From: Odiellus spinosus
Lineage: Eukaryota > Arthropoda > Arachnida > Opiliones > Phalangiidae
Assembly: GCA_963920705.1 (NCBI GenBank)
Contig: OY987225.1
Coordinates: forward strand, 5,649,372 to 5,713,371
DNA: 64,000 nt
Direction: 5' to 3'
In this document: one piece after another, positions 13,641 through 61,868 of the stretch
Layout of the letters: each line of letters begins with the position of its first letter
Position numbering within the stretch: position 1 is the stretch's first letter
Translations under genes and position numbers: made by a program
Notes under the pieces: model-generated
Told to the model about the DNA's origin: nothing
The model's input: only the letters and a program-made list of their open reading frames with translations
Databases searched by the model: none

Positions 13641-13686
13641 ACTGCACTCACAAGCTCCTGGGTTTCCAGGAGCTTGTGAGTGCAGT
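13641..13686. repeat. Perfect 21 bp-arm hairpin at inner edge of IR1
   Basis: ACTGCACTCACAAGCTCCTGG, a four-base loop (GTTT), then its exact reverse complement. The hairpin ends one base before the right IR1 arm begins. Its GTGAGTGCAG core also occurs once upstream at 13599-13608. Confidence 0.95.
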
Positions 13687-15305
13687 CGCGAAAGAGATAA
13701 TAAGGGAGCTTATGCGTGTTGAGTTCTAGTCTGTCAGTAATGAAAACCCGAAAACAATAAACAAGTCGTCGCGAAAGAGATATAAGGAGGCTTATGCGTG
13801 TTGAATGTTAGTCTGTCAGTAATGAAAACTCGAAAATAATAAACAAGTCGTCGCGAACGAGATAGTAAGGAGCTTATGCGTGTTGTGTTAGTCTGTAAGT
13901 AATGAAAACTCAAAAACAATGAAAAAGTCGTCGCGAAGGGAGCTTATGCGTGTTGAGTTCTAGTCTGTCAGTAATAAAAAACATGATTTGGAAAACATGA
14001 TTTGGAAAGCATGGTTTGAAAAACATGATTTGGAAAACATGATTTGAAAAACATGATTTGGAAAACATGATTTGGAAAATATGATTTAATGCAATGACTG
14101 TGGGGATATTCATCTTTCTCAATATATCGAATAAAAACGCTCACGGTCATATATTCGGCTCGAGAAATTTCCGCAACTTCGTGTTTAAAGGAATCTCGAG
14201 ACGCCATTCAAATTATTTAAAGAGCGTTTATGCATGCACAACAAGCCCCTGCTATAGAATCATTCCTTTCAGCCTCTTTTACAATGTCAGGGGTCTAGCT
14301 ATTCCTATAAGCTTGACCATCTTGTTTGATTTTAGGTTTTTCTGAATCTACGTTATCGAAAACCTAAGAAAAATATCAACTCTTATTTTTAAGCATCTCC
14401 TAAATATAATAGAAAAGGTTTTAAAGATCGGACTTCGTTGTCGGCTTAAAAAAAGGCATGGAGTCCATGTGCTTCAATTTCCGAGAAAAACATCAGACCA
14501 ATAGGCGCTCTCGTGTATAGTATAGTTTATATTACCCATAGCCTCCTCGATCACGCGCTTCGGCTGCGCTCGCGCTATTGAAGCCCCGGCAATCGGCCGA
14601 AAAACGCGAATGACGAATTCTCGAGATTTACAAAAAGACACCAAACTGATGAACGTCTCAAAGGGGGGCAACTGACCACATTTGAAGGGTTTTGCCCTTT
14701 TCAGGACTTTAATGATTTTTAAAAGCCACAATTAAAATATATGTTTTACAAATTAGTTTATTTTAACTCCTTAAAAAGGTTTCATAATTTTAGGGTAAGA
14801 AGTTTTTAAGTTAAAAAATAATTATCAACTTAAGTTGGTAGCGTGTGCAAACATTTATCACATATAATTTGTTGTGAAATTTTTATTCTGAAATTTTTAT
14901 TTAAGTTTTAAAACGATAATGATACAGTGCTAAATTAGGTGATGTATTTATACACCAATAATTAAAAATTTAAAAGACAATCTGGAGCGTGGAAATTGAT
15001 TTATTCGTCATGTTTATTCAAACCAGTTTCAATCTATTCGTCTATTCTATCTACTATGCTAGGAAGGGAAAAGAGAAGAAACAGGCCGTATGTAGATTTT
15101 CGCGCCGAAAGGTAGCTATATGCAAATTCCCTAATCTTTGGTGCCATAAGTCTTCGCTCTTTGTCATAACGTTACTCGCTTTAAAAAATAGATGTTCATC
15201 CGCTTGTGACTCAGCAGCCAATACCTTTCTTTCTTCGTGAAAGTGAAACAATCCTCCTTCTTTTGTAATAATTCAGGGAGAGCGTTTGGATTAATTTTAC
15301 TCTAA
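13687..15305. repeat. Right arm of inverted repeat IR1
   Basis: Reverse complement of 1-1618. It carries about four minisatellite units (13690-13975) and the short TTTGGAAAACATGA array. The match to the window start ends only because the window does, so homology may extend rightward past 15305 with a partner off the left edge. Confidence 0.9.
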
Positions 15306-26907: not shown

Positions 26908-27003
26908 TCTGATAGTTCGAAACGAAAAATTACTTCATTTATGAATTTAGAAAAACTAATTACACCAGATGATAATGTGTTTCTCGAGGCTGTAAAAGAA
27001 AGT
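26908..27003 (+). pseudogene. Fragment of virus-like gene C
   Basis: Encodes SSKRKITSFMNLEKL and the following PDDNVFLE stretch, nearly the same as residues in gene C (32524-33176). The fragment ends abruptly at segment X (27005-27072). It shows that gene C has existed in more than one copy here. Confidence 0.75.
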
Positions 27004-27004
27004 T

Positions 27005-27072
27005 GTACCGTCTACTTCGGGTCTTTCCTTTGTTTTCTTCAACATTAAGTTTCATAAATGGGTGACAAACTA
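27005..27072. repeat. Segment X, 68 bp (second copy 28763-28830)
   Basis: GTACCGTCTACTTCGGGTCT onward, ending GGGTG(A/G)CAAACTA, is shared with one difference by two places. In each place it directly truncates a different viral gene fragment (gene C here, Rep at 28763). Confidence 0.9.
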
Positions 27073-28631
27073 TATATTTATATATGAGATAGGGAATTTG
27101 ATTCTCTCGCTTCCACCACAAGCGAGTCTCTAAGCGGGAAAGGTGTTCAAACTCAGTGATTGTTCAACTTCAAAAAGGTTTTTCCTATAACAATCGGAGC
27201 TTGCCATTCCCTCGCTTTCTAGAAGTTCGACTGACCCACTCTTGTTACTGCCCCCGTAGTCGCGTATTCTACGCGGAATATATGTCTTCCAAGTTTTGTT
27301 GGCGCATTGAAGGTAGTAGATGTGTCTATGATGGAATGTATATATAGTTTAGTTTAAATTTAAATTATACATACCATGCCAACCTTGGGAATAAACTGAG
27401 ATACGCGAGGAGATGCGCGCGAGTGGTCGGTCCAAACTGCTCGGCGAGGAACGCGTTCGGGCTTAAATCATTGTTTGTTTTTACTGAATCCAGGAAGTCA
27501 GACAAGAGTTTAACAGATAGAAATAGGAGCTCAAAAATACTTTATTATAGTATGACCAAGAGTATATAGTGTACGTGAGTTATTATCGACCTAAATGATC
27601 TTGAAGTAGATTTTATATCCCACAGTTTCAAATTTTCTTACGACTATGTGCTTTTTTTCGAGATTCATTATGGGGACACATCTCGTGCATTTTTAAATTA
27701 TTATGTTTACAAGTTCCCGGTTGCTCGCATTTAACCGGTTTCGTGTCGTACACAGCCGAATAATCAATCAACTTTATTCATTAAGTTTTAGAACAAAGAA
27801 ATAAAAGACTTTAAAAAAAAGCACCCTTACGGATATTTCGGGGTTTATCGACTTTGAAATTTTGTTGTCCAATCGAAGTTAAACGAGACTCGCTTTTTAA
27901 GAAACGCGCAGCGACGCGGATGAACTATAGATTTAAGTTTAAAAAGTAACGCGAAACAATTTTATTCTATTAATAAAATTCTTGATAAATATTCCATGTG
28001 GCATTTGACCTCCCCTCAAGGTACAAAGCTGATTATTGGCATTGTTCAATGTCAGTCAGCCCATTGGGTCCATTGACAGAATATTCATTCCATCCTGTTT
28101 GTTAAGGTATTGAAGCATTGAGTAGTTTTTGCACTAACATTTCTGTATTTCAGCATATATTTATATAATATTTAATTTATTGCTAAAGAGTGCGCGTTTG
28201 GAACGAGTCGACGGTGGAAGAAACTACACATTGTGTGGGTGTTGTATTAGTGAACGCGGAAGTTGAAAATTTAACATTTGAAAATCACAAAGTTTTGATT
28301 TCTGCGAATGAAGAACTCTTTTCGTTCGGCTTCGATACAATTATTGATTTTCGACTACAAAAGCTCACTTTAAAAGTCCACTGCTGAAATAAATTCAATT
28401 AAAAAGGTTATTTAATACCAGGTATGTAAACTTTAACGGGACAAAGCTTTTCATTAGGGTTGCGCCAGTACTCTGACTCACAACCCGTTTTCCCAGGCCT
28501 CGCGCGATTACTTGAGTCCTAAACCAACGCTAAAAATATACTCGATTAGGACTCGCAAAGAGATATAAATACCAAAAGTTTGGGGAAGTTCATAATTAAC
28601 AGCAGTCTCTATAGTTTGTTAAGTTTACAAC
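27073..28631. other. No recognised gene
   Basis: The ORF at 28190-28387 (65 aa) follows a TTTCAG acceptor-like site and has a plausible coding composition but no known motif. The rest shows nothing supportable. A CG-rich patch lies near 27410-27470. Confidence 0.4.
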
Positions 28632-28758
28632 TGGAACTACCTGACGGGTGGTATCAAGCTCATAGATCAACAATTTTGCGACTTATTGATAATCTTCCGA
28701 TCACAATACATAAAAAGTACGTACAGCCCACCGCTACCATCTTTAACGGATACATTAT
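28632..28758 (+). pseudogene. Rep helicase C-terminal fragment
   Basis: Encodes ELPDGWYQAHRSTILRLIDN and on to ATIFNGYIIFV, nearly identical to the C-terminal part of the Rep gene at 33666-34725. It breaks off before the conserved SN of motif C, at segment X. A degraded extra copy. Confidence 0.85.
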
Positions 28759-29120
28759 CTTTGTACCGTCTACTTCGGGTCTTTCCTTTGTTTTCTTCAA
28801 CATTAAGTTTCATAAATGGGTGGCAAACTACTACATTGTAAGTCAGAATATAAAGGCTTGAAGGTTTCATCTCTCTTCTGGTGTTTTGTACGTAGGAGCT
28901 TAGCAACGTTTTCTCTCTCCTCTAGTAAACCGTAATACACTTTCTATCTCTCCATTATCAAAAAACTAGGTTACTTTTTAAAGCGGTTGTGCCACGGGGG
29001 AAATAAAAATCGTTACTTTTACCTTATAATTTAATTTGAATAAAATTGTTACTTTTACCTAATAATCTCATTTAAATTACTTTAAAAAGGCTTCTCAACA
29101 ATATTAAATTTATAGTCACC

Positions 29121-29915
29121 ATGGCTTATTTGACTGAATCATCCGCTCCAGGTGCGCGAGCCCATCGATTGGAAGGAGTTTTATCCCTCCAATGTTCAGC
29201 TTTCGCGGCGGTTGAATCTTGTTACGTATTACAAACGAGTCACAATACGGACGATTTTCACCCCGAAAAATTCGAAACGAAAACGAGACTATTAGTCAAG
29301 TTATCCCAACCCGTCTTCATTGAGTGTTACCAGCTGTTATTGTCTCTTTCTTACTCACATTTCATAACGCCTGAATTTGGTAAATTAAATGTGGGAGAAT
29401 TTGACAATTATTTGTTTCATCCTCAAGCCATATTATGGGGTTGCAATGTTAAAACGTTTGGTGATAAAGCTTTAACAGTTTGTTCTTATTTCCATTACAC
29501 GAACCACCATTGTCCGTATAAAGCTTTAAACTTTATGGGATGGGAGTTCCATAACCAAGAAATGTTCCATCAATTTATCTCGTACAAAATTGTCATTTTT
29601 GCTTTAAAGTATGTCTATTTTTTATCAACAAATTAGCAATTGAACTAAAAAATGACTTTATATTAGATACCGCGAATTCTTTGACGGTCAGTATATTTCA
29701 ATTGCGGATTATGACTCTAAAGTGTTAAGATTAGAAGAAAAGGTATGTAGTTGAAAATACTGTTTAAAAAATTAAATATTAATATTTAATTTTTTTTGTA
29801 GATCCGTAAATATTATTGTAAATCTAAACAACTAAAAAAATGGCTTAAAGATTATATTTTCAACTATAAAAAATTCGACACAGATGAAGAATATAGTGAT
29901 GAAGAAATATCTTGA
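29121..29915 (+). CDS. Gene D: Cys/His-rich protein, 225 aa, three exons
   Basis: Predicted exons 29121-29608, 29667-29742 and 29802-29915 join in frame (226 codons including stop), with GTATGT donors and TTAG/GTAG acceptors. The protein has scattered Cys and His (LQCSAF, FIECYQLLL, WGCNV, TVCSYFHYTNHHC) and an acidic Ser/Glu tail (DEEYSDEE). Intron positions match those of gene A: the first is just before a YRE motif, the second after the short middle exon. D and A are therefore paralogues. An AATAAAA 31 nt before TCATTT (29068-29073) is a possible promoter. Function unknown. I noted a loose similarity in layout to adenovirus E4 34K-type proteins but cannot support it. Confidence 0.7.
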
Positions 29916-30474
29916 AAATAAAAATACATTTTGAATTAAAAAAATGTGTGTTATTATCTCTTTATTAAGAAAAAATACAAAATGTTAGCCTACCAATGAA
30001 AAAAGGTTTGTGAGGCTCGCATTTTCTGTCAATTGACGTTAGTAAGAGAGTAAAAAAAAAGTCTAAGAAGACTACATTTCTTAAAACAGATCCGAGGGGT
30101 AGAACGCCATTTTATATTTTATTTTCTCAGGTATGTAAATTTATTTTTGTTCGTTATTTTATATTTAATTATTATATTTTATTAAAATAGTGCTGGCTCT
30201 AACGGAAAAATTCAGTTTCTCGTTTATATTAAGAAAAAGATATGACTAAAAGCTTTGTTAAAAAAGGTTATATAGATATTAATATTTTTTTCTGTTTTTT
30301 AAAGCTCACTACATCACGGAATGCGAAAAAAGATTCGGCTATGGACATGCAAAAGTTTATAATGGATTAAAGTAGTTAAAAAGTAATGAAAAATAATAAG
30401 TCATCAATTCACGACGAGATAATAAATTAAAGGTAAAATCAAATTTAATCATTTTTTTGAGCGGTCAATATACA
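29916..30474. other. Convergent intergenic region
   Basis: AT-rich spacer between the converging ends of gene D and dUTPase. AATAAA-type poly(A) signals are possible on both strands. No ORF of interest. Confidence 0.5.
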
Positions 30475-31058
30475 TTAAGTACTTGAGCCAAAACCGCCAA
30501 TGCCCCTAACGGTTGTACTCAATTCCTAACAAATTCAAAAAATGTTTTTTAGTAAAATTAAGTTTTAATATTTTTTAAGAAAAACATACCGTGGCTTCGC
30601 AGAGAACTGGGATTAATATTGGGGTAATTACTAATTGGGCTATCTTGTCACCGGCTTTAATGGTATATTCCGTTTCTAAGTTGGTTCTTAGCATGATTTG
30701 TAACACGCCACGAAAGTCGGAGTCTATAATCCCTGGGTCGATAAAAATACCCTCCAAAAGTTTCGCTAAAATAGAAATTTTAGCTATAATTTTAAAAGTT
30801 AGTTTTAAGTTTAATATTGTAAAACTTACACGATCTGCCCAGCAGCGTCCCCACGGTGTAAGGGGGTAGTTCGAGTGCAATCCCCGTGTGTACTTTGACA
30901 AGTCCATTCACGGGGATTACTGTGTCATACAATGAGTAAAAGTCCAAGCCTGCTGACCAATTCGCAGCTCTAGTTGGTGTAAAAGCGGCTGGACTTAATT
31001 TTAAATATTCTAGAAAGGGGTAAAACGGTTGCACTACGGCAATATTTTTAATCAACAT
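30475..31058 (-). CDS. dUTPase, intact, three exons
   Basis: dUTPase hydrolyses dUTP to dUMP and keeps uracil out of DNA. It is common in DNA viruses. Predicted exons 31058-30830, 30765-30590 and 30525-30475 give 151 residues. All five trimeric-dUTPase motifs are present: SAGLDFYSL (I), GRSS created at the first splice (II), G.IDSDFRG with Phe for the usual Tyr (III), GDKIAQL (IV) and RGIGGFGSS in the last exon (V). The start ATG is chosen because the other copies also begin close to it. Two further copies on the plus strand (36949, 48326) are broken. A TATATAAATA lies about 60 bp upstream. Confidence 0.88.
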
Positions 31059-31435
31059 ACATTTAGGTTTGGTAAGAAGATTCAATAGCGAAAAAATGAA
31101 CCTTATTTTTGCGTATTTATATATTCTGTGGCTTAATATAAAAAAAGTGGTTATCTACATATGTATATTAATGACGTGAAAAATATAGAATGTTATTTTC
31201 TTCAATGTCGTCCAGTTTTAAAATTTTTATTCTAATATAAAAATATTAAAATTATACACGTAGTGGTTATTATAATTAAGATAGATTATCTAGTCATATA
31301 GAATTAATATACAAATTATGAAAATATACACTATAATTACATTTAATTGGTATAATTATCATTTTAGAAAAATAATATTTTTTGAAAGAATATATTTATT
31401 ATAAAGGAATAGTTTCACAAAGAAAAATTGCAAAG

Positions 31436-32149
31436 TTATAAAATGCCATTAAAAGAGGTATAAAGTGTAATTAAAAGTAATAAATTGGTCCATTTCTGGT
31501 TCTAAAGTTAAATATCGGGCTTTCATTTTCTTCATCTAAAAGTAAAGAACATTATAATCTCAAATAAATTTAAGTTTTAAAAAAAATTACAAACCTGTCG
31601 ATTAAGATAGTTATAATCTTTCTTCTTATTTTTCTCATTTCAAGCGTAGGGTTTTTGCAAAAAATATTGAGTACCCGATATCTAAATAAGGATATCATTA
31701 TTTTTTGATAACAAAGCTGGTATTCATTAAGTAACGTACAAGGTAGCAAAAATGGCCGCTTTATAGTAAGTCCAGCCACGTATATAATAGCTGGTATGAA
31801 TTTGAAACGTAGAACAGCGAAAATGAAGGAAGGGACAGGTAGGATGACCAATATGCACCTCAAAAGGACAAAAGGGAGGAGGGATTTCTAAGTCACAATT
31901 ATATCTATTGAAACGAAAAAGTCCATGTTTTTCGGCTATAAAGTAGTTATAGTCTTTTAAAAGTTCATAACACTGATCAAAAACGCGTTTACCTATTATA
32001 TTAACAACGTTATCGCGCTTTTCTACGGGTAATTTGTTAAAAAGAGCATTTTTATCACATATGTGAAAACTAAGTGCGGTTAATGACAAAATTGTCTCAA
32101 AAGGCTCGGTGTTTTTAATATCGCAATTTACACTTAAACAGAAAGCCAT
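31436..32149 (-). CDS. Gene A, copy 1: Cys-rich protein
   Basis: ATG at 32149. Exon 1 32149-31740 with donor GTACGT, exon 2 from 31681, last exon ending near 31436. The protein carries FHICDK, VFDQCYELLKD, FRFNRYNCDLEIPPPFCPFE and a CPF.HFRCS segment. Near the end of exon 2 this copy has two extra bases relative to copy 2 (36026), which shift the frame, so the C terminus is altered. It lies directly upstream of dUTPase on the same strand, and is divergent from gene C across 374 bp. Function unknown; conserved Cys pairs suggest metal binding. Confidence 0.6.
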
Positions 32150-32523
32150 TATTTTATCGAGTTCTTATGTTACGAAGACTTTAAAAATGCTAATATTTTT
32201 TAGCTTTATATATGGAAATAAATGGGTTATATCTATGTAAAAATTGAACTAGAGGGGATAATTAGAATAGATTAAAATATTTTTATAAATAGGCGTTGTA
32301 CCTTAAAAGGATTTTTTGATACATATTAAAAAACTAATTATCTTTGTACGTGATTTAAAAAATATTAAATTCTAATTTTTGAAAAACAAAAAATATCTAT
32401 TTTTTTATTTATTTTTGAAATTTTCGTCTATATAAAGATAGACCATAACGTGTAAAAGTTTATTTTCAGTCTTTGGGAGTTTAGCGTCGATTAGGTTTTT
32501 GTCTTTGAAGAAATATCCGGAAT
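32150..32523. promoter_or_regulatory. Divergent promoter between genes A and C
   Basis: On the minus strand CCATATATAAAG (about 32204-32214) precedes gene A, and the same box precedes copies 2 and 3. On the plus strand TATATAAAG (32429-32437) is followed by TTTTCAGTC (TCAGT at 32466-32470), a spacing slightly longer than the classical one. Both genes would start from this 374 bp interval. Promoter assignment is inferred from motif and conservation among copies. Confidence 0.5.
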
Positions 32524-33176
32524 ATGAGTCAATTACTCGAATCCCAGGATATATTGGATTTGTCCAGCCCTTTACCATCTCCCGACATTACAGTAGAAGA
32601 AGCGGAATGTAATGAATTGCCAGACATCAATCGACCCAGTACCTCTCATAAATTGAGTAGTTCAAAACGAAAAATAACTTCGTTTTTAAATTTAGAAAAA
32701 TTAATAGCGCCTGATGACAATATTTTTCTTGAAAAAGTAAAAGAAAGCTCTACTGTTTCAACACTTGGCCCAGAAAGTAGCGTGCGTTTAAGGCTAAATG
32801 GTAATTACTACGAATCAAAAACGAATGGGCTGTTTTATATAGAAATGAACTTATATAAAATGGAGGACATTGGAAACAGTCCCATTGACGAACTCTGGAA
32901 AGCGGACCATAAAAAATTAAAATACGTGTAAGGTTTTTAAATTACAATTATTAATTTTGTAGTGTGACTGATGAATCGGATCGAGGTGGTGTAAAATTGG
33001 TCAACGACTTTTACAAATGTTGCGAAAGCTACTATTGTTCTAATCTAAACTGTAATTATCTTTTCGACCTAATCGCCTTTAATAATCTTCAAAATCTTTA
33101 TTATATCAATGTTCTAAATCCATCTCCCGAAACTGAGCTAGCAACCTCCTTAAACCTTTCTTTTTCTATTGTCTAA
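32524..33176 (+). CDS. Gene C: acidic N terminus, zinc-ribbon-like C terminus, 205 aa
   Basis: Exon 1 32524-32927 and exon 2 32963-33176 join in frame across a 35 bp intron (GTAAGG...TGTAG), unusually short. The N-terminal 60 residues are acidic and Ser/Pro-rich. SSKRKITSFLNLEKL follows and is duplicated at 26908. Exon 2 has CCESYYCSNLNC, a possible zinc ribbon, and ends in a hydrophobic segment. A minus-strand ORF at 42500-42754 shares the YYC..xxC pattern and a following I.VL. An acidic activator-like plus zinc-binding layout suggests a regulator, which is inference. Function unknown. Confidence 0.6.
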
Positions 33177-33527
33177 AAATTCAACTGTTCTATAATTTTA
33201 CCTCTAAAACTAAGTTTAATGTTATATAATTTCTAAACTGTATACGTTGTATTATATTTAAAAACTGTTTAATGATATTTTAATGTATATATATTACTCA
33301 TTTTGAAAAGAATTATGTACAAATTGAAACTAAATATTCTACTTTACTTATGCTAAAAAAGTACTTATATGCTAATATAGTCAATTTATTTATATAGAAA
33401 ATTTTAGTCTAGACACTTTTTTATGTCGATCTAAACCCACAAATTTCACCCCTGACAACAACATTTAAATATCTCTTAAACGTGGGTATGAAGAATTTTT
33501 TTAATCAAAGAACCTTGAGTTAATTAG

Positions 33528-33566
33528 TATATAAACATTGTAAGTCTAATACTAATATTCATTTGA
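33528..33566 (+). promoter_or_regulatory. Core promoter of the Rep gene
   Basis: TATATAAA at 33528-33535 and TCATTT at 33559-33564. The initiator A (33561) is 31 nt from the T of TATAAA, matching the arthropod TATA/Inr spacing and the TCAKTY initiator consensus. The ATG of Rep is 105 nt downstream. Confidence 0.6.
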
Positions 33567-33665
33567 AACTTATTCACTCTTTTGTATACTCTCTCGCTTA
33601 TTTTATCCAACCATTTACTATCCAACTAAATAGCGGCAAGTCTCTCTAGTAGTGTTTGCCTGAGT

Positions 33666-34725
33666 ATGCCGCGCGAATCTGGATGCTCCTACGCCATTAC
33701 AATTACTGGACAACTACAAGGCCTAAATGTCGGATACATCGAGGAAAGAATACGCGTCGAATTACTCGACATTACAAGGTATGATTTTTATATTTTTATG
33801 CAAATATGGACGCTGTGTGCGCGCCCGCGGCTAACTCGCCGCCGGAATCGCTGCGCGATTCCTGCCTTATATAGGCTCCTCGTCATTAGGCGCATGCATT
33901 ACAGTTGTCGCATGCATTTACAGTTATGTCCTCACTGAGGAGCAGTCTAACGACGATGTCTATCACCACCACTTCTGGTGGAAGTGTCCTCAGGCATATG
34001 ACTACTGTGAAATCAAAAGATGGCTTGGTGCGCTCTACGAACCTGGTAAAGAAACATACACTTTATCCTATGACGTACAAGGCTGCAAGAGCCCAAAACG
34101 TTGGATTTCCTATATTACTAAGGATGCGGGAAATACATGCTATTCCAATCTATCATCTGGTTCATTTCACTTTAATTGGAAACTACGGAGATATGCTGAA
34201 ACTAACCCCACCTTTTCCTACTGTCATAATTTCGTCGTCACCAACTGTCATAGACACCAGTTCATTGCACTGTATCATCAGGAATATCAAAGAGTACGCC
34301 TATCAACCCTTCTTCCATCTGGTCTCCATACAATGCATCAGACTCGGATTGCTATGGCCTTGCAACAGAATAACGGAAGTAGCTTTTATATTTGGGGACC
34401 CAGCGGAAGTGGAAAAACTACTGCAGTCGAAAGGACATTGGGACCGATATCTAAAAGTGTACTATACCTCTCTGGTATGTCCTCAACTAACTGGGACTTC
34501 GGGGGCCTTACACCAGAGACTAAAATTATATACCACCCGGAATTACCTGACGGGTGGTATAAGGCGCATCGATCAACGATTCTCAGACTTATTGATAATC
34601 TTCCGGTCACCGTACAAAAAAAATACGTACAACCCACCGCTACCATCTTTAACGGAATCATTATCTTTGTTTCCAACTATCCCCTCCCTCACAGGACGAC
34701 GCTTTCGAGCGAAGATTTCATATAA
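33666..34725 (+). CDS. Rep: HUH endonuclease with SF3 helicase, 304 aa, one intron
   Basis: Rep proteins start rolling-circle or hairpin replication by nicking DNA and unwinding it. Exon 1 33666-33778 and exon 2 33924-34725 join exactly in frame. Visible: motif 1 YAITITG (residues 9-15), motif 2 YHHHFWW with the metal-binding His pair, motif 3 WISYITKD with the nicking Tyr and Lys, Walker A GPSGSGKTT, a helical ILRLIDNLP stretch, and motif C IIIFVSN. The length is that of CRESS-DNA virus Reps. The Walker B acidic pair is not obvious: the site reads KIIYHPEL. Helicase C-terminal fragments also occur at 28632. It sits beside protein-primed polymerase and dUTPase remains, a combination reminiscent of bidnaviruses and adintovirus-like elements. 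Confidence 0.85.
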
Positions 34726-35189
34726 TCAAAACAGACTTCGATGGTAGCTCCACGGAAGAGGACGTATTCGAGATTCCGCCGTCAGTGGCGGCGGTCAGTG
34801 GCGGCGGAAAAAACCGGTTTACAAGGCCGCAAACCGTTGGCGGAAATTTCGCCGAACAAGAAAAATTAGGCCTAAACGAAAAAACTTCGGTAACGGAAAA
34901 AATAACTTTCGGATCTTTTATACTAAAGAAACTATGCTCTATAATCAAACTTTCGGTCAAGATGCTAACATTCCAGAAACAGAAAAATGTAACTTTCAAT
35001 ATCGCTACAGAAAACAACTAACCAACGTTGTCCCAAATAGCAGTGAAACTAATAACGGTTTCATAGCTAACAATTATAGATACAAAAAATTAATGTGGAT
35101 TAAACTTCAAGTAAAATCATTAAGAATTAACCGAGCAAATATGGTAATTCCTCAATCTTCATTATAAGGAAGTTAATCGAACTGAATTT
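34726..35189. other. Unassigned coding-like stretch
   Basis: Overlapping frames at 34785-35021 and 34934-35167 have Asn/Lys-rich composition and no recognised motif. A 15 bp GGCGGCGGTCAGTGG-type repeat lies at about 34782-34806. Possibly a decayed viral ORF, perhaps the lost N-terminal part of the following polymerase. Confidence 0.3.
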
Positions 35190-35823
35190 ATTGCCTTTTC
35201 TAATTTATGACGGTTCTCATCTCATTGAAAAATTTACAGTTAAGATTTGTTGACAGTTATTCCTACGTCGCTGCCCCTTTAAGAAATTTTACGCAAATGT
35301 TTGGGCTTGAAGATGACGTAGTAAAAGGGTATTTCCCTTACTCTTTTTACAATAGTTCGACTTTATATTATAAAGGGGCACTGCCACCGAAACATTATTT
35401 TAGCCAGGAAAAAATGAAAGATCAGGATTTTTAAAATTTTGAAAAATGGTATGAGAGTCGTGAGAAAGAGGAATATAACATTCAGAGGAATATAACATTC
35501 ACGAAGAAGTTTTAAAATACTGTAACCAGGATGTAAAATTGTTACGGGAAGGGATGGTAGTTTTTCGAGACATTTATTTAAAAATTAAGGGTTTTGATAT
35601 TTTTAGTTTGCCAAACGTAACTATAGCCGGGTGTTTGACTACCATTTTTCTAAACAATTATCTTAAACCGTATACAATGGGAATTGTTCCTCCTAACGGA
35701 TATCACAATCAATTTGTCTATTCTAAAATTATTTTAAAATATTTGCCTTGGTTTGAAAAACAAGGCGTAAAACTCAAACAGCTTTATACGGAGGGGAAAA
35801 ACAAGTTGGTTAATGCCGATTAG
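35190..35823 (+). pseudogene. Protein-primed DNA polymerase B, exonuclease region
   Basis: The frame from 35207 shows FVDSYSY...L..FTQMFGLE, KGYFPY.F and GALPP..YFSQEKM, the ordered hallmarks of the Polinton/adenovirus-type polymerase exonuclease region. After a break at about 35434, YCNQDVKLLREG (exonuclease motif III) and the T.AG...IFL.NYL segment follow to a stop at 35821. It is truncated at both ends with at least one frame break, and no polymerase palm motifs remain. A C-terminal fragment of the same family lies at 49606. Confidence 0.8.
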
Positions 35824-36025
35824 ACGGTTATTATGTACCAAGAAACCCTTTTAAGATACAACGCCTATTTATAAAAATATTTTAATCTAGGCTACTTATC
35901 CCCTCTAGTTCAATTTTTACATAGTGATAACCCATTTAGTTCCATATATAAAGCTAAAAAATATTCACAATTTTAAAGTCTTAGTTCTGTTTAAAGTCTT
36001 AGTAACATAAGAACTCGATAAAAAA

Positions 36026-36723
36026 ATGACTTTCTGTTTGAGTGTAAATTGTGATATTAAAGCAACCGAGCGTTTTGAGACAATTTTGCCCTTAACCGTG
36101 CTTAGTTTTCACATTTGTGATAAAAATGCCCTGTTTAAAAAATTACCCGTGGAAAAGCACGATAACGTTGTTAATATTATAGGAAAACGCGTTTTCGATC
36201 AATGTCGGGAACTTTTAAAAGACTGTACCTATTTTATAACCGAAAAACAAGGACTTTTTCGTTTTAATAGATATAATTGTGACTTGGAAATTTCTCCTCC
36301 CTTTTGTCCTTTTGAGTTGCATATTGGTTATCCTACCTGTCCCTTCGTTCATTTTCGGTGTTCCACATTTCAAATTCACACCAGTTTATATATACGTGGC
36401 TTTACTTTCTATAAAGCGACCATTTTTGCTACCTTGTACGTTACTTAATGAATATCAGTTTTGTTATCTGAAAATAATGATATCCTTATTTAGATATCGG
36501 GAACTTAACATTTTTTGCAAAAATCCTACGCTAGAAATGAGAAAAATAAGAAGAAAGATTAACTATCTTAATCGACAGGTTTGTAATTTTAATTTTAAAT
36601 TTTAATTAAAAAAACCTTAATTTATTTAAATATTAATATGTTATTTACTTTTAGATGAAAAAAATTAAAGCCCGATTTTTAACTCTAGAACCGGAAATGG
36701 ACCAATTTATTACTTTTCATTGA
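36026..36723 (+). CDS. Gene A, copy 2, intact, 187 aa, three exons
   Basis: Exons 36026-36435, 36494-36578 and 36655-36723 join in frame (188 codons). Exon 1 has the same 410 nt length as copy 1. Features are as in copy 1, with NCDLEISPPFCPFE and a final exon rich in Lys and acidic residues. TATATAAAG at 35945-35953 is its likely TATA box, and a partial repeat of TTAAAGTCTTAG follows it. The first intron precedes YRELN and corresponds to the YREFF position in gene D. Confidence 0.7.
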
Positions 36724-36885
36724 ATTTTATAACTTTGCAACTTTTCTTTGTGAAACTATTGCTTTATAATAAATATATTCTTTTACAAAAAAATATTATT
36801 TTTGTAAAATGGTAATTATACCAATTAAATGTAATTATAGTGAATATTTTTATAATTTGTATATTAATTCTACATGACATGAATA

Positions 36886-36920
36886 TATAAATACGAAAAA
36901 ATAAGGTTAATTTTTTCACT
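36886..36920 (+). promoter_or_regulatory. Promoter of dUTPase copy 2
   Basis: TATAAATA at 36886-36893 and TTCACT with its A at 36918, 32 nt apart. The same arrangement precedes copy 3. In copy 1 the initiator A is G. Confidence 0.5.
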
Positions 36921-36948
36921 ATCGAATCTCATTACCAGTTATAAAATT

Positions 36949-37395
36949 ATGGCTAATAAAAATATTTCCGTTGTTCAGCCTTTTTACCCCGTTCTTAAAT
37001 ATTTAAAATTAAGTCCGACTGCTTTTACACCAACTAGAGCTACAAATTGGTCTACTGGTCTAGACTTTTTCTCTTTGTATGGCACAGTAATTCCCGTCAA
37101 TGGGCTTGTCAAAGTGCACACGGGTATTGCGCTTGAACTACCGCCCTACACCGTGGGGACGCTGCTTGGAAGATCATGTAAGTTTTACCTTATTAAACTT
37201 AGTTTTACTTTTAAAATAATAACTAAAATTTCTATTTTAGCGAAACTTTTGGAGGGTATTTTTGTCTATCCCGGAATTATAGACTCAGACTTTCGCGGAG
37301 AGTTGCAAGTTATGCAATATACAATTAAAGCCGGTGATAAAATAGCCCAGCTGATAATTTCACCCATATTATTTAGAGTCGACTCTTTTATATGA
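36949..37395 (+). pseudogene. dUTPase copy 2, damaged
   Basis: Exon 1 (36949-37177) is the same 229 nt length as in the intact copy and has motif I as STGLDFFSL. Exon 2 (37241 on) keeps motifs III and IV but lacks eight residues after DFRGELQVM, and the sequence diverges after the PI residues. The exon carrying motif V is missing, so an active trimer is not expected. Confidence 0.8.
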
Positions 37396-43134: not shown

Positions 43135-44170
43135 ATGCCGACAAAAAAAGAATTGCAGGAAATGTTAAGGAAAGAAAAAGAAACAATTAAAAAGGGGGCA
43201 GCCGATGAAAAAGAGGCAATAATAGCCTTAGTGAGAAAAAATGAAAATTTGTGGAACCGAGGCTTAGTTTCGTATAGAGATCGAGATCTAAATGAAAGGT
43301 CTTGGACGGAAATAGCCAAAGAAATGAAATTGAAAAGTAAGTACACAGTCTTTTAATGGCTCTACATTCCATGATATTTAAAACAATTTATATTAGAGGA
43401 TGTATGCAAAAAAAAATGGAAAACCTTGTTTGACCAGTTTCGGTCACACTACCAGACTGTGACGGTTTCCAAGAAGTTGACGACTCTGTGTTTGATTCTG
43501 TGAATTGGCCATTTTTTAAATCTTTATTGTTTTTAAAAGACATCGTAAAGAGAAGGGAGTAAGTACAAGAGTATGAATTAATATTACAATATTATGAAAT
43601 AGTACCACGTCAAATTTCTCAGCCGTGGAATCGACAGATTCCGAGGAGAAAGTACAAAATGATGTTAAAATTGTACCAGAGACGTCATTTACATGCAATT
43701 TCATGGGAAAAGACTATGAAATTAACCATGATATCTCTGACCATGAAGAAGAAACAAGCAATGAAAGAAATGTTTTGGACTCGGTTATTGACATGGACAA
43801 CCCAGCCCCCGGGCCATCAAGCCGAAGCGAAGAGACAACTTCGGAAGAGTGAAAGATCTCCGAAGAGAAAACTTGTACAAGAAAAATTTGGCAAGAAAAA
43901 TAAAAAGGAAACTACTTCCATTCCACCCTCATCTGTGCTAGAAGCATTAGCACATTGCAATAAGTAATTAAACACAATTTCACCCTCACTTTAAGCAAAA
44001 ATATTTTTTTTTTACTATTTACAGATAACTTAATAAGCCCGACGATTCGGCAACTGCTTTTGCAGATTATGCTGCAAGTTTGCTTAGAGATGTTGATAAG
44101 AAAAAGAGAAGAAAATGTGAAAGAGAAGTTATAGACACAATTATGGCATTTATAAATGAAGACGAGTAAA
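43135..44170 (+). CDS. Harbinger A Myb/MADF-like DNA-binding partner
   Basis: Harbinger elements encode a Myb-like protein that helps transposase enter the nucleus and bind ends. Exon 1 (43135-43337) ends in ENLWNRGLVSYRDRDLNERSW and EIAKEMKLK. A predicted intron leads to 43396, EDVCKKKWKTLFDQFRSHY, completing a MADF-type domain. A frame change or extra intron follows, then NWPFFKSLLFLKD and a GTAAGT donor at about 43559. Later segments 43625-43852 (acidic) and 44032-44170 (a BESS-like LLRDVDKKKRRK) finish it. Exact exon structure between 43440 and 43620 is uncertain. Confidence 0.6.
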
Positions 44171-44245
44171 AATTTGTAAATAATTTTTTTAAACGAAGAA
44201 ATTCAATTTTTAATTTTTATTTGAAATAAAATTAACATATTTCAT

Positions 44246-46017
44246 TCAAATAAAATCGGGTCTCTTTACACCTTTTAAATCCCATTGCCATTCAACATTG
44301 CCTGCTCCTACAAAATATTTGGCATAATTATCCCTGATGGATGCTACTTCTCTGCTAAAATTTCTTGCGGAAGTACCTCTCACTTTTTTAAATCCTCTAG
44401 CGGGATCATTTTTGAGTTCTTCGTGCCATTTTCCTTTCATGATATTTCCAGTTTTTTTGTCAAGAACATCTGCGAAATCATTTGGACAGTAATGCTTTTG
44501 CTGCAATTTTTCTTCTTCTATCATTAAAAAATTGTGAAGCACTACACAAGCTCTGATAACTTTGTCAACATTCGACGGCTTCAAAATAAGAGGTCTTCGA
44601 AAAACCCTCCAACGTGTGGCCAAAATACCGAAGACGTTCTCACTGCACCTCCTAAAACATTTAAACTTAGTTAAAGAACAATAAATACGGCTTAGCGAGT
44701 AACAAGACTGTTACGAGTACTCGAACCAGAATTCATTGGATTACCGAGTAGTGTCAGTAGAAACCTAATAAATACTCTGCAAATTGAAGCATTTTGCACC
44801 ACTCGATAATCACAACGATAAGGCAATAAAATTATTTAAATTTAAACCTACCTAGCTCTGCTTAAACGGTAATTAAAAATAATTTGAGAATTTGTAAGAC
44901 GACCTTCTCGAGAATACGGCTTCATAAAATTTGGCAATAACTGGAAAGCATCATCTCCGACAAGCACATGTGGTGAAATAATGTCAGTGTTGGGCAAAAG
45001 AACCGCTGGTGGAAATCCCGCTTTATCATTTTCAACGGCTTGACCAAATGAGGAGGACTTAAAAATTCCTCCATCGGAATGTGACCCATATCCAGCAATG
45101 TCTACGACTAAAAATCTGTATTTAGCGTCTACAACTGCCATCAAAACAATGGAATTGAAACTCTATCAAAAAAGAAAGAAATTAATTTCAAATATTTACT
45201 ATTAAAACCGTATAAATTACTTTGTAATTATAATACAAAGTTCCACTGTTTGAAGGTTGCTGTATCATGACATGCTTGCCGTCGACAGCTCCGCAACAGG
45301 TCGGATAGTTCCATCGTGTGCAATATTCTGCTTCAGCCTTCTTCCAAATATTTTCAGTTGGTTGCTAAATAATAAATTAAGACTTAAAAATAGTCTAAGA
45401 ATATTATGAAGAACAAATTTACCGGTAAATACAGAGGCTGTAAAACATCCCAAAGTGCCTGACAAGTCTCTTTAATAATATTGTGTGCCGTAGTTTTACC
45501 GAGGCGAAAAGCGTATGCCATCGAATCCAACCCATCTCCAGTTGCCAAGAATCTAAAGTATAAATTAATATATTTTAGGCCTCATCAACAATATTTAATT
45601 ACAATACAAGTTACCGTAATGTTAGAGCAAGTCTTTCTCCGGGAGGTATAGGTTTACGACCAAGAGGATTCTTTACAAGACGGAGCTTTACCAATTCCAA
45701 AAGTTTATCAAACATAATTGGTTCCATCCTCGTAAAGTTTGAAAATTTCCTGTGGTCAGTATTTCTCATTGTTTTCATCTAATCAATTCACAAGACAGAT
45801 TTAAATATATTTTGCCAAGGCTTATGAATATAATAAGAAATAAAAATACCAGAGTCCTATAGTGTCCTTCCGTACTTCGTTTCTTCCAAATAGGATGAAC
45901 CCACCATCTCTTGCGTGTATATTTCTTCTTGGCATTTAATGTAAGTTGATAATATAGTTGAATTAAGAGCAATTTTCTTCGCATTAAAATACGCCGCCTC
46001 CTCGACGTGACCGCCAT
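44246..46017 (-). CDS. PIF/Harbinger transposase A, six exons, apparently intact
   Basis: DDE transposase that cuts and inserts the element. Predicted exons 46017-45850, 45778-45615, 45552-45423, 45364-45221, 45162-44852 and 44651-44246 join in frame to 440 residues. Markers: RWWVHPIWKKR near the start, a helix-turn-helix-like exon 3, GAVDGKHV (first Asp), AGYGSHSDGG (second Asp), VGDDAFQLLP, FNYRLSRAR and RCSENVFGILATRW with the catalytic Glu. No stop or frameshift seen. The second copy at 62088-63859 is identical over the segments compared. Confidence 0.88.
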
Positions 46018-46331
46018 TAAACTTTTGAGAAATTTTGACTCGGAAATACACGCCTATCGCTGTCACGTGATGTCGTTCCCCCGATTGAAACCCTTTGCCC
46101 GGCCGGATTGAAAACGACCTTCAATTCTCGCTTTTGCTTTTCTCTCTTGCGGCAGCGCCGAGATGGAAAATGCGATTTTTTCCCCTCTTTCAATCATAAG
46201 GTAAAAGCGTTGAATTTTCTTTATTGAAAACGGCCCTTAAAAGTACAACGGAATTGTTCCATAACGTAACGGAACCAAATGTTAAATGAGAGTTTTTTAT
46301 TAGAATTATTTCTTTTAAGAGAAAAAAAACA

Positions 46332-46448
46332 AAAGACTAGCGTGGTTTAAGGGTAGGAAATATTATTTTCATCGAAGGGGATTCGAACCCCGGACTTTTT
46401 TTTTTTTATAATATTACATATTTTTACCCCTAAACCACGTTAGTCTTT
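46332..46448 (-). repeat. Fold-back element with tRNA-like boxes
   Basis: About 117 bp with ends AAAGACTA(G/A)CGTGGTTTA and the inverse. On the minus strand the left part gives GTGGTTTAGGGGTA, close to a tRNA A box. About 40 nt on is GGGGTTCGAATCCCC, an exact T-arm/B box pairing. There is no full cloverleaf. It resembles a tRNA-derived SINE or MITE. The inverted partner is at 61657-61773. Confidence 0.65.
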
Positions 46449-47264
46449 AATTTTACAGTCATATAATTTCGTTTTTTTTTCTTTTAGCGGACTGTAAACA
46501 CCTTTGGCCGTATATTACCACTCTTTTATGGCCAGAGTGTAATATATATTTTTATGTTGGGGCTACCAATAAGGTATAGGGGGTGTAATATATTTTTTAC
46601 TTTAATTATTACTGCGCATGGCCTGTCTCTTTCTTTCGGACTACAAACTCTTATTTTTTTATTGCTTCTCATGTCTTTGCTCTGTCTTTTGGACGGCAAA
46701 CAACTTTATTTCTTTTGCTTGTCATATCATTTCAAACAATTCGCATATGTCCTCTGATTCGTCTAATTTTTTTATTAATCCTCATATTTTTGGTCTTTTT
46801 TTTTGAGGCTTTTCATCTTCTACAACATTAAGTTTCATAAATTGTAAAATTGAATGGTTTTACTTTCTTCTTCTGCCACTTTTTTTTGGAGCTAAATGTT
46901 TTGTGGTAATCTTATAGTTTTAGTTTCTTAAGCCTTAAGTTTGATTTTCATTCCAATAGTATTTGATGTGGTAAATTGACTCTTTTGCATGATTTTAGTA
47001 AAGCTTACTGGAGAATTGAAAGGTGTAGCATTTAGAACCATTTTCACTTCCAATTTCTGTCAACACCTTCTACACCTTTTGATTGAGGAGCATCCAGAAC
47101 AAAATGGGTACCAAGAAATCCTTTTAAGATACAAAGCCTATTTATAAAAATATTTTAATCTAGTTCAATTTTTACATAGTGATAACCCATTTATTTTCAT
47201 ATATAAAGCTAAAAAATACTAACGATTTTAAAGTCTTAGTAAAATAAAAGTTTCGTAAAAAAAT
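46449..47264. other. No gene; promoter of gene A copy 3
   Basis: AT-rich. Frames at 46554-46806 are low-complexity hydrophobic and mirrored in the other arm. From about 47107 the sequence matches the upstream region of gene A copies 1 and 2, including CATATATAAAGC near 47200. CAACATTAAGTTTCATAAAT at about 46823 is shared with segment X. Confidence 0.5.
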
Positions 47265-47945
47265 ATGGCTTGTTTGAGTGTAAATTGTGATATTAAAGCA
47301 ACCGAGCCTTTTGTGACAATTTTGCCCTTAACCGCGCTTAGTTTTCACATTTGTGATAAAATTGCCCTGTTTAAAAAAAAAACCCGTGGAAAAGCGCGAT
47401 AACGTTGTTAATATTATAGGAAAACGCGTTTTCGATCAGTGTCGCGAACTTTTAAAAGACTATAGCTATTTTATAACCGAAAAACAAGGACTTTTTCGTT
47501 TTAATAGATATAATTGTGACTTGGAAATTCCTCCTCCCTTTTGTCCTTTTGAGTTGCATATTGGTTATCCTACCTGTCCCTTCCTTCATTTTCGGTGTTC
47601 CACGTTTCAAATTCACACCAGCTATTATATACGTGGCTGGACTTTCTATAAAGCGGTCATTTTTGCTAACTTGTACGTTATTTAATGAATACCAGTTTTG
47701 TTATGGAAAAATAATGATATCCTTATTTAGATATCGGGAACTTAACATTTTTTGCAAAAACCCTACGCTAGAAATGAGAAAAATAAGAAGAAAGATTAAC
47801 TATCTTAATCGACAGGTTTGTAATTTTTTAAAAAACTTAAATTTATTTAAGATTAATATGTTATTTACTTTTAGATGAAAAAAATTAAAGCCCGATTTTT
47901 AACTCTAGAACCGGAAATGGATCAATTTATTACTTTTTATTACAC
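47265..47945 (+). pseudogene. Gene A, copy 3, frameshifted
   Basis: Starts at ATG 47265 and follows copy 2, but a longer A run at about 47378-47387 shifts the frame after residue 40. The remainder (47388-47685), the YRELN exon and the last exon are recognisable. Confidence 0.8.
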
Positions 47946-48325
47946 TTTATAACTTTGCTATGTTTCTTTGTGAAACTATTCCTTTATAATAAATATATTC
48001 TTTAAAAAAATATTTTTGTAAAATGATAATTATACCAATTAAATGTAATTATAGTGAATATTTTCATAATTTGTATATTAATTCTATATGACTAGATAAT
48101 CTATCTTAATTATAATAACCACTACGTGTATAATTTTAATATTTTTTTATTAGAATAAAAAATTTAAAACTGGACGGCATTGAAAAAAATAACATTCTAT
48201 ATTTTTCACGTCATTAATATACATATGTAGATAACCACTTTTTTATATTAAGCCACAAAATATATAAATACGAAAAAATAAGGTTCATTTTTTCACTATT
48301 GAATCTTGTTACCAAACCTAAAAGT

Positions 48326-51967: not shown

Positions 51968-52075
51968 GAATACACGCGAAGAGGGCTTCGCAACTTGGGT
52001 AGCACGTGCTTTACGAATTCGGTTATTCAATGCCTATTGAACACGAAAGAACTCTTCGAAGGACTAAAAATTAAC
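51968..52075 (+). pseudogene. Ubiquitin-specific protease Cys-box exon
   Basis: Directly after a TTTTCCAG acceptor the frame gives [20 protein letters not shown], the USP catalytic Cys box (GL.NLG.TCF.NS..QCL), then a stop at about 52073. The His box and the rest of the protease are missing. The end of the exon overlaps the 3' end of the opposite-strand YqaJ gene. It may be a captured or truncated host exon. Confidence 0.6.
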
Positions 52076-53001
52076 TAGCTTTGGCAACATATCATTTTTA
52101 AAGAATTCCTTGTTATAATCTATTCTTTCTATAAATGGTGCATCATCCCCGCAATCAACGATTAAATCGCACCATGAAAGACCACTAATACCCATTTGAC
52201 CCTGCATCTGATAGTAAAAATTATGTTTCTTATCACAGGTTAAGGAACCATTTTCATCTAGTTTTAGAAATTTGGTAGTTGGTTCATTTCTTTTAATGCC
52301 TTCGTTGATAGAAATATTTTGAAATTTACATTTTGACAGAGTTTTTATTTCTAGGAGTCCATATTGGCCCGTTGTCTTATCTAAAACAAGTCTTGCCGGA
52401 GATGCGCCTAACATTGGCAATGATGGGTTAACGCAAAATCCTGTTGAGAATGTCTCTATGTTTCCTCGTAATACTTTGTACTTTTCCGTAGCGGCTTTTT
52501 CATTGTTTAATCCTTCTTGGATATATTTATTTCTCGATATATCGGCACCTGTTATAAGATTTTTCAAGAAGCTTTCAGTTGCCGCTTTCTTCCGTTTGCA
52601 GACGGCTCCAAATTTGGAAGCGGTGATCCTTTCTGCGCGTTCAGCTTTCCACAGACCACAGTTAGACTGATCTTTTGTTTCAAATTCCAATTTTTGCGCA
52701 GCATCTAGCGTTATTTTAAGGACAGACGTAGTTTTTCCCATAGCATCTTCAATAAGGCGGAGAGATTGTTCATTGCACTGACTAATGTCAAATATCTTCA
52801 CTGGCAATGATATTCTTTTGGTGAGATCAGTTTGAACAACAATCAACTCGTCGTTATCTCTGACAATAGCAGCGGCTACCTCAGGAACGAAATGGTTTTC
52901 TTCTTGTATACGAGTCAAGAATTTGCGTTTTGAAGCATTCTTAAATTTGTCACAAAGCTTCTCAATCCTACGTTTCATGTTGACATTATCATCTTCTGGG
53001 G
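52064..53001 (-). pseudogene. YqaJ-type exonuclease domain (3' half of split gene)
   Basis: YqaJ/lambda-exonuclease proteins digest DNA in recombination and belong to the PD-(D/E)xK nucleases. Visible: WKAERAERITAS, a glycine-rich LGASPARLV, GLLEIK and HNFYYQMQGQMGI, in order. The first catalytic acid, normally Asp after SP, is Ala, while the E-x-K pair is intact. The frame is open to 53001, where Harbinger B begins; codons past that belong to the transposon. The 5' half resumes at 56377. Confidence 0.8.
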
Positions 53002-53310
53002 GGCTATTCTGTAAGCATCGAGAGCGGATTTGTGATCGACAAATCTCATGATCTCGATCTCGATGTCGAAAATTACTGAAATAGTATTCTATAAGTACAT
53101 TTGTCGACATCGAGATCGACAACGTTCTCGATAATCGAGTGTGTTGTAGATGTCTATGTCGACAGGGCAAAACGTATCGAAAACGATGTCGACATCGTTT
53201 TCACCCAATCACAGAGTTATAGCGAAGGGAAGAGAAGCAAAGACTATATACCGCATAGCGTTACATCATATGTAGTCTTTGCTAAAATTGTTACCGAAGT
53301 AGAAGAAACA

Positions 53311-59830: not shown

Positions 59831-60164
59831 GTTCGTATTTATATATTTTGTGGCTTAATATAAAAAAGTGGTTATCTACATATGTATATTAATGACGTGA
59901 AAAATATAGAATGTTATTTTTTTCAATGCCGTCCAGTTTTAAATTTTTTATTCTAATAAAAAAATATTAAAATTATACACGTAGTGGTTATTATAATTAA
60001 GATAGATTATCTAGTCATATAGAATTAATATACAAATTATGAAAATATTCACTATAATTACATTTAATTGGTATAATTATCATTTTACAAAAATATTTTT
60101 TTAAAGAATATATTTATTATAAAGGAATAGTTTCACAAAGAAACATAGCAAAGTTATAAAGTGT

Positions 60165-60841
60165 AATAAAAAGTAATAAATTGATCCATTTCCGGTTCTA
60201 GAGTTAAAAATCGGGCTTTAATTTTTTTCATCTAAAAGTAAATAACATATTAATCTTAAATAAATTTAAGTTTTTTAAAAAATTACAAACCTGTCGATTA
60301 AGATAGTTAATCTTTCTTCTTATTTTTCTCATTTCTAGCGTAGGGTTTTTGCAAAAAATGTTAAGTTCCCGATATCTAAATAAGGATATCATTATTTTTC
60401 CATAACAAAACTGGTATTCATTAAATAACGTACAAGTTAGCAAAAATGACCGCTTTATAGAAAGTCCAGCCACGTATATAATAGCTGGTGTGAATTTGAA
60501 ACGTGGAACACCGAAAATGAAGGAAGGGACAGGTAGGATAACCAATATGCAACTCAAAAGGACAAAAGGGAGGAGGAATTTCCAAGTCACAATTATATCT
60601 ATTAAAACGAAAAAGTCCTTGTTTTTCGGTTATAAAATAGCTATAGTCTTTTAAAAGTTCGCGACACTGATCGAAAACGCGTTTTCCTATAATATTAACA
60701 ACGTTATCGCGCTTTTCCACGGGTTTTTTTTTTAAACAGGGCAATTTTATCACAAATGTTAAAACTAAGCGCGGTTAAGGGCAAAATTGTCACAAAAGGC
60801 TCGGTTGCTTTAATATCACAATTTACACTCAAACAAGCCAT
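60165..60841 (-). pseudogene. Gene A, copy 4 (mirror of copy 3)
   Basis: Same A-run frameshift as copy 3 (about 60725), so the damage preceded the inverted duplication. The dUTPase that follows copy 3 is missing here because the arm ends at 59833. Confidence 0.85.
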
Positions 60842-61868
60842 ATTTTTTTACGAAACTTTTATTTTACTAAGACTTTAAAATCGTTAGTATTTTTTAGCTT
60901 TATATATGAAAATAAATGGGTTATCACTATGTAAAAATTGAACTAGATTAAAATATTTTTATAAATAGGCTTTGTATCTTAAAAGGATTTCTTGGTACCC
61001 ATTTTGTTCTGGATGCTCCTCAATCAAAAGGTGTAGAAGGTGTTGACAGAAATTGGAAGTGAAAATGGTTCTAAATGCTACACCTTTCAATTCTCCAGTA
61101 AGCTTTACTAAAATCATGCAAAAGAGTCAATTTACCACATCAAATACTATTGGAATGAAAATCAAACTTAAGGCTTAAGAAACTAAAACTATAAGATTAC
61201 CACAAAACATTTAGCTCCAAAAAAAAGTGGCAGAAGAAGAAAGTAAAACCATTCAATTTTACAATTTATGAAACTTAATGTTGTAGAAGATGAAAAGCCT
61301 CAAAAAAAAAGACCAAAAATATGAGGATTAATAAAAAAATTAGACGAATCAGAGGACATATGCGAATTGTTTGAAATGATATGACAAGCAAAAGAAATAA
61401 AGTTGTTTGCCGTCCAAAAGACAGAGCAAAGACATGAGAAGCAATAAAAAAATAAGAGTTTGTAGTCCGAAAGAAAGAGACAGGCCATGCGCAGTAATAA
61501 TTAAAGTAAAAAATATATTACACCCCCTATACCTTATTGGTAGCCCCAACATAAAAATATATATTACACTCTGGCCATAAAAGAGTGGTAATATACGGCC
61601 AAAGGTGTTTACAGTCCGCTAAAAGAAAAAAAAACGAAATTATATGACTGTAAAATTAAAGACTAACGTGGTTTAGGGGTAAAAATATGTAATATTATAA
61701 AAAAAAAAAGTCCGGGGTTCGAATCCCCTTCGATGAAAATAATATTTCCTACCCTTAAACCACGCTAGTCTTTTGTTTTTTTTCTCTTAAAAGAAATAAT
61801 TCTAATAAAAAACTCTCATTTAACATTTGGTTCCGTTACGTTATGGAACAATTCCGTTGTACTTTTAA

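Follow-up and report, generated by a model that had tools for sequence, protein, structure and literature searches.

The arachnid Odiellus spinosus (Opiliones) carries, in a stretch of 64,000 nucleotides on contig OY987225.1 (C1:5649372-5713371; this whole stretch is called the window), five closely packed genes named D, dUTPase, A, C and Rep, which an earlier note took for the core of an undescribed integrated DNA virus or virus-like transposon. The locus raises the question of whether these five genes belong to one element, and of what kind, and it is addressed here by comparison with the whole genome (443 Mb, 286 contigs). It is very probable that the D-dUTPase-A-C block is the accessory right-terminal region of a Polinton/Maverick (adintovirus-like) provirus family, of which the window holds a dead fragment, and that Rep and a Cap-like frame behind it form a separate small-virus remnant. 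Polinton/Maverick elements are a known kind; what is unusual here is the introns predicted in the accessory genes, with conserved splice sites. Coordinates are collected in Table 1.

The complete element lies elsewhere in the genome. Computed from its end motifs, the copy on contig C6 extends from 17434099 to 17454814 (about 20.7 kb; L047:2700 to L032:3415, L numbers denoting stretches of the genome), and a copy on C22 from 356560 to 377300. The C6 copy ends in inverted repeats of ~150 bp, of the form AGTAGT...ACTACT, with a 155-base match across the two ends that is 98.7% identical. Target duplications of 6 bp flank all three of the examined copies that have both ends (TACGTG on C6, AAGAGA on C22, GGTATC on C18). 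The C18 copy (L045:6553 to L046:1619), which has one extra AGT at its left end, is a non-autonomous mini-Polinton, an internal-deletion derivative of 5.07 kb that keeps both ends and the C-A-dUTPase-D block. Copies on C8, C149, C22, C84 and C275 are 99.1-99.9% identical to C6 over 9.6-10 kb left of A (L031 on C6 against L039, 99.87%; L041, 99.67%; L034 and L038, 99.33%; L036, 99.11%), and L047 and L048 are 99.0% identical over 7.3 kb.

Profile searches of the C6 stretches (scores in bits, each against the family cut-off) recovered an RVE integrase (rve, PF00665, 44.8 vs 32.6), an adenovirus-type cysteine protease (Peptidase_C5, PF00770, 25.6 vs 21.3) and, in L031, a PolB of 1283 aa, a family B DNA polymerase of viral/organellar type (DNA_pol_B_2, PF03175, 152.4 vs 25.8). 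Of 4913 candidates searched with PolB, 27 are relatives at E 1e-10, and the best that bears a virus name, third of the 27, is that of the Larimichthys croaker adintovirus (34% identity); for the integrase, nothing was confirmed in an IMG/VR scan. A BIR frame is present at L031:4652-5173 on the minus strand (56.3 vs 22.9 bits), and, taken from stop to stop, this frame of the C6 copy overlaps the last part of the PolB frame.

The window copy is colinear with the right end of this element in inverted order, and its match to L031 and L032 (79-85% identity by blastn) covers 28939-33026. At 33026, inside the second exon of C, the sequence switches, though PolB would be expected after C: homology of this exon to L031 stops there and the frame continues into other, foreign sequence, so that C as a complete gene is ruled out. 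By reading, the second exon of A has a small frameshift relative both to a second window copy and to L032. The AGTAGT end motif was not found anywhere in the window with up to 3 mismatches allowed, and the rve integrase had no match when reference Polinton pieces were compared with the window. Because the match is limited to this interval, the end motif is absent, C is cut and A is frameshifted, the window copy is read as a fossil. In a Pfam scan of ten window pieces, dUTPase (PF00692, three frames; above cut-off in both exon frames of the gene), a weak Rep helicase and a PolB fragment were recovered, the last also by tblastn with reference PolB residues 513-736; D, A, C and the Cap-like frame had no family above cut-off.

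Synteny connects C, A and D across the genome. Matches number 148 for A (all 148 candidates scored), 108 for C (150 of 251 candidates scored) and 108 for D (all 111 candidates scored), all of them lower bounds; merging neighbouring matches gives 106, 91 and 93 loci. At 59 of the 106 A loci (a number that includes segmental copies), A has C upstream of it and D downstream, each within set distances and on the strand opposite to A, and the three genes thus travel together; 14 other A loci have C only, 9 have D only and 24 have neither. dUTPase sits between A and D in the element copies examined. Against the window copy, ratios of non-synonymous to synonymous substitution (dN/dS) span 0.126-0.192 in the 8 rows of D, 0.064-0.292 in the 7 of C and 0.117-0.551 in the 21 of A, and none of these 36 non-identical comparisons reaches 0.56; rows with stops, less than 90% coverage (30% for Rep) or identical protein were dropped, and the copies are not independent. 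A had no relative in one word-based protein search and D none confirmed in the IMG/VR scan, searches with C covered its own genome and Pfam only, and AlphaFold models of the first exons were too poor for use (mean pLDDT 43.8 for A, 40.9 for D). D, A and C would be small, constrained helpers; since they lie in the accessory zone and match nothing known, our guess is that they act as host-interaction factors.

Introns were compared as distinct sequences between matched exon flanks across copies. Intervals with a GT close to their start and a terminal AG make up 10/10 of the distinct ones for D intron 1, 7/9 for D intron 2, 18/20 and 13/15 for A introns 1 and 2, and 14/14 for the C intron. The two failures in D intron 2 are L018 and the window copy, whose acceptor was then read directly from the sequence. 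A scripted count for dUTPase returned 0/21 because its anchors lay off the splice points; recounted by eye from the printed intervals, the donor GT is present in 20 and the acceptor AG in all 21. Mean GC of the intervals is 0.12-0.24. Lengths vary among copies by amounts not divisible by three, with the splice dinucleotides kept in most, and the C intron of the window copy has 37 bases vs 64-71 in the 13 other distinct intervals. By reading, D and dUTPase are the two genes of the set whose exon lengths close in frame. The short AT-rich introns that the earlier note had described in four genes are thus supported, as are the broken copies around the cluster, found in the window by repeat comparison and tblastn, and the statement that D, A and C match no known family, as judged by Pfam. 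Its five full or nearly full frames are all present, with two qualifications: C is cut at the breakpoint and A is frameshifted.

A and D are likely to be distant paralogues, judging from their sequences. Their first exons align in hhalign with 94% probability (E 1.3e-7), the control pairs A-C and C-D reaching 0.4% and 0.1%; a tblastn search with D recovers a copy of A (25% identity, E 5.7e-5); and, by reading, both genes have two introns at matching places and in the same phase. An intron also appears to interrupt the putative ATPase, where a GT...AG stretch separates the beginning of the Walker A motif from GKST. Integrase and PolB are single uninterrupted frames, so that copies capable of transposition only are conceivable without splicing. 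A recently mobile Polinton lineage may have switched to spliceosomal genes, including an ATPase whose Walker A would be made by splicing, and splicing could then act as a switch between transposition-only copies and virion production; this is advanced tentatively, as a scenario with odds against it.

Beyond the breakpoint, window positions 35360-33026 are 97% identical to L049 863-3203, from a second locus on the same contig (C1:6528300-6533300), and the final residues of Rep are in a different frame from this relative. What Rep and the Cap-like frame represent is probably an ordinary endogenous remnant of a circular single-stranded DNA virus that landed in or beside a Polinton fragment. Such an origin is suggested by the helicase piece, which only just passes the PF00910 cut-off (21.7 vs 21.5 bits; 19.1 for the longer frame), and by the arginine-rich frame behind it. 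By eye, Rep has HxH-like and YxxK-like strings that would be candidate HUH endonuclease motifs, and its two N-terminal pieces have no Pfam match at E 10. At C1:0.68 Mb (L050, C1:681500-686000), an endogenous densovirus, represented by an NS1 piece (PF01057, 38.4 vs 20 bits) and a 516-aa VP4 frame (PF02336, 81.2 vs 27 bits), has a Rep piece of 75% identity and a fragment of Polinton integrase as neighbours, and contig C1 thus collects virus remnants. Against this origin, none of 289 candidates in a protein search reached E 0.001 and IMG/VR gave none, and no origin of the nonanucleotide type (TAGTATTAC) was matched on either strand in 32800-35400 of the window. Comparison of Rep with solved structures gave six matches, the best at E 0.14, none convincing. 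For Rep, comparison of the window with C1:6.53 Mb gives a dN/dS of 0.55 (12 changes), and with C1:0.68 Mb one of 0.235 (124 codons), which fits, without proving, a virus gene constrained before capture and weakly after.

Two other explanations would tie Rep more closely to the element. In one, the five genes form the core of a single undescribed integrated virus replicating with Rep, as their common presence within 5.6 kb suggests, together with the fact that also at C1:6.53 Mb and C1:0.68 Mb Rep and C share a strand and are no more than 12 kb apart. However, Rep has 13 genome matches vs 148 for A and 108 each for C and D. The Rep matches comprise the four segmental copies, a further one of 97% identity, a locus in two pieces (73-75%), five small fragments and, on C8 but far from the C8 element, a weak match of 42%; the other 12 are on C1. 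Nothing in the three stretches covering the C6 copy matches the Rep part of L049. At C1:6.53 Mb, Rep and Cap-like frames abut a PolB fragment, and C is about 9.7 kb off, followed by PolB as in a normal element, which marks the C-Rep neighbourhood in the window as a local rearrangement. C is within 2 kb of Rep only in the four segmental copies and the Rep fragments of the same copies, the junction itself having been read in the window only, and a functional link between C and Rep was rejected because the neighbourhood is confined to these near-identical copies. The order of the genes, both in the C6 copy and at C1:6.53 Mb, rules out the five-gene unit, and a single virus replicating with Rep is highly improbable. 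The other explanation is that a small DNA virus was the source of a Rep-Cap cassette which one Polinton sub-lineage captured and carried temporarily, leaving remnants in the window and at C1:6.53 Mb. A Rep-Cap/PolB junction near 35157 is common to two loci at 97%, a Rep fragment also lies beside a 96% D copy at C1:7.30 Mb, and an integrase fragment of 68% identity abuts the 75% Rep at C1:0.68 Mb; this last locus is a separate case among Rep loci, for which reason capture is kept as a rival. It is nonetheless decidedly unlikely: all Rep loci but the weak one on C8 are on C1, so that segmental duplication explains the sharing equally well, and among the stretches examined no Rep locus has inverted ends and a target duplication.

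The reading of a spliced Polinton/Maverick fragment beside a separate small-virus remnant has several observations to set against it. Of the 12 merged Rep loci, 11 are no farther than 12 kb from a match to A, C or D, more than the 0.016 (genome) or 0.057 (C1) expected by chance; because most Rep loci near Polinton pieces are segmental copies, the number of independent Rep-Polinton events would be small. The A32-like candidate for the genome-packaging ATPase scores below cut-off in one exon frame (PF04665, 20.9 vs 22.8 bits). At E 0.1, Pfam gives no match for any of the three frames of the capsid region (411 aa, open to the stretch end; 795 aa; 202 aa), the candidates for double jelly-roll major capsid and penton proteins. 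It is thus by their position, their size and the habit of the family that the ATPase and these frames are named. Copies resemble one another less in the right 3.4 kb of the element (L032:1-3415, which contains A, dUTPase and D) than in the rest, with identities to C6 of 94.9-99.9% on C8, C149, C22, C84 and C275 and down to 92.5% on C5, as if the right end had been exchanged between lineages. Splicing is inferred from conservation of the sequence, the ATPase intron was read in one copy only, and the alignments used for the A-D comparison are shallow (Neff <1.4). The earlier idea of an integrated virus core stands in part. The block is virus-like, integrated, multicopy and predicted to be spliced, but its four genes are a Polinton/Maverick accessory right end rather than an undescribed five-gene core, and Rep falls outside it, since Polinton homology ends at 33026 and a separate Rep/Cap-like segment continues to about 35157. 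The synteny for which a search had been advised exists for C, A and D, with dUTPase in place, and excludes Rep; shared ends and target duplications are present in three of three examined element copies that have both ends, all elsewhere, and the window copy has no end motif. The earlier note had named genes occurring only singly as the outcome that would speak against it: C, A and D do not occur in that way, and Rep in substance does.

From what is known of the family, the Polinton/Maverick element would be copied by protein-primed PolB replication from its inverted ends and inserted by its own RVE integrase, and it might package itself. Its dUTPase would exclude uracil from new DNA, and death of the host cell would be put off by the BIR protein. 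Given the predicted introns in D, A, dUTPase and C, expression of these genes would require transcription and splicing in the host nucleus. Rep and the Cap-like frame would be what is left of a separate small virus, caught in the repeat-rich stretch that also holds the Polinton fragment and later joined to C by rearrangement.

Table 1. Features of the locus, in window coordinates
Feature	Position	Strand	Remarks
C fragment	26911..27012	+	tblastn/repeat comparison
Rep fragment	28628..28764	+	86% identical to 34534-34670 (repeat family D5)
Right-end fragment of Polinton/Maverick, holding C, A, dUTPase and D	28939..33026	-	inverted relative to the C6 reference copy
Gene D	29121..29915	+	exons 29121-29608, 29667-29742, 29802-29915; two short introns; exon ends read from sequence
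dUTPase	30575..31058	-	exon 1 31058-30830, exon 2 30765-30575; one 64-base intron; ends read from sequence
Gene A	31449..32149	-	exon 1 32149-31740, exon 2 31681-31595, exon 3 from 31535
Gene C	32524..33026	+	exon 1 ends near 32928; exon 2 partial, cut at the breakpoint
Foreign segment with Rep and Cap-like frames	33026..35157	+	97% relative at C1:6.53 Mb
Rep-like gene	33666..34725	+	putative first exon 33666-33780 (by eye only); main frame 33835-34725, superfamily-3-type helicase
Cap-like frame, arginine-rich start	34748..35167	+	label from resemblance only; no Pfam family above cut-off
Polinton PolB fragment	35157..35831	+	PF03175, 28.7 vs 25.8 bits for 35479-35823
A and dUTPase, second copy, in opposite orientation to the first	35832..37395	+	inverted repeats I1-I7

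The surroundings of the locus are rich in repeats. Further copies of A with dUTPase are found in the window at 36.0-37.4 kb and 47.3-48.6 kb, and of A near 60.4-60.8 kb. The locus itself has four copies on C1 (5.63-5.78 Mb), which alternate in orientation and are 99.2-99.9% identical over 3.4 kb, through either recent palindromic amplification or an assembly effect. Two long inverted pairs were observed in the window, 1-1620 / 13685-15305 (99.7% identical), which encloses a Polinton gene fragment at 12.9-13.4 kb, and 44105-48274 / 59832-64000 (99.9% identical). A small cysteine-containing gene family is represented at L050:3202-3537 on the minus strand, at about 16.1-16.9 kb of the window and at L049 3348-3644; the L050 query has at least 150 genome matches, with 150 of 327 candidates scored, and, by eye, the L049 frame and the stretch entered by the C frame past 33026 resemble this family. 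Finally, a frame of 378 aa at window 52064-53200 has YqaJ and viral alkaline exonuclease domains (PF09588, 49.9 vs 22 bits), and none of 16 Polinton pieces tested matches there.

Many near-identical copies, together with introns, matching intron positions in A and D and an apparently split ATPase motif, would make intron gain in such elements testable, and the same family would also allow splicing to be tested as a limit on virion production. The locus further shows how a repeat-rich region can juxtapose pieces of unrelated viruses and so mimic one new virus.

Set beside known systems, the Rep segment resembles remnants of circular Rep-encoding single-stranded (CRESS) DNA viruses, having a Rep with a superfamily-3-type helicase and then an arginine-rich frame; it is unlike them in that no sequence relative of this Rep was found in the searches made. 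The element itself is like adintoviruses in its best virus-named PolB relative, its RVE integrase and its protease; adintoviruses are defined, in PMC11071296, by a PolB with an OTU-like N-terminus and a Hexon recognisable by BLASTp, and Drosophila-associated members are described in PMC8363768. The main text of PMC11071296 mentions splicing or introns twice, neither time about adintoviruses. With Polinton/Maverick elements (PMC8097293; PMC4028283) it shares PolB, RVE integrase and adenovirus-type protease, and it has a candidate, below cut-off, for their ATPase. Vertebrate Mavericks, according to PMC8097293, have (AGT)2...(ACT)2 ends, 6-bp target duplications, lengths of 12,723-24,620 bp and accessory regions at their flanks, and the present element is like them in inverted ends, target duplications, size and the placing of accessory regions at the flanks. 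The same paper describes intact vertebrate Mavericks as without introns, in stated agreement with Kapitonov and Jurka 2006; this description, which is not a defining feature, does not appear to hold here. In literature searched with partial coverage, no report of introns in these Polinton genes was found, and no paper joining Polintons with a BIR domain or inhibitor of apoptosis. The present family thus differs from Polinton/Maverick elements in having introns in four accessory genes and apparently in its ATPase too, in carrying dUTPase, D, A and C in its accessory region, and in placing a BIR gene beside PolB.

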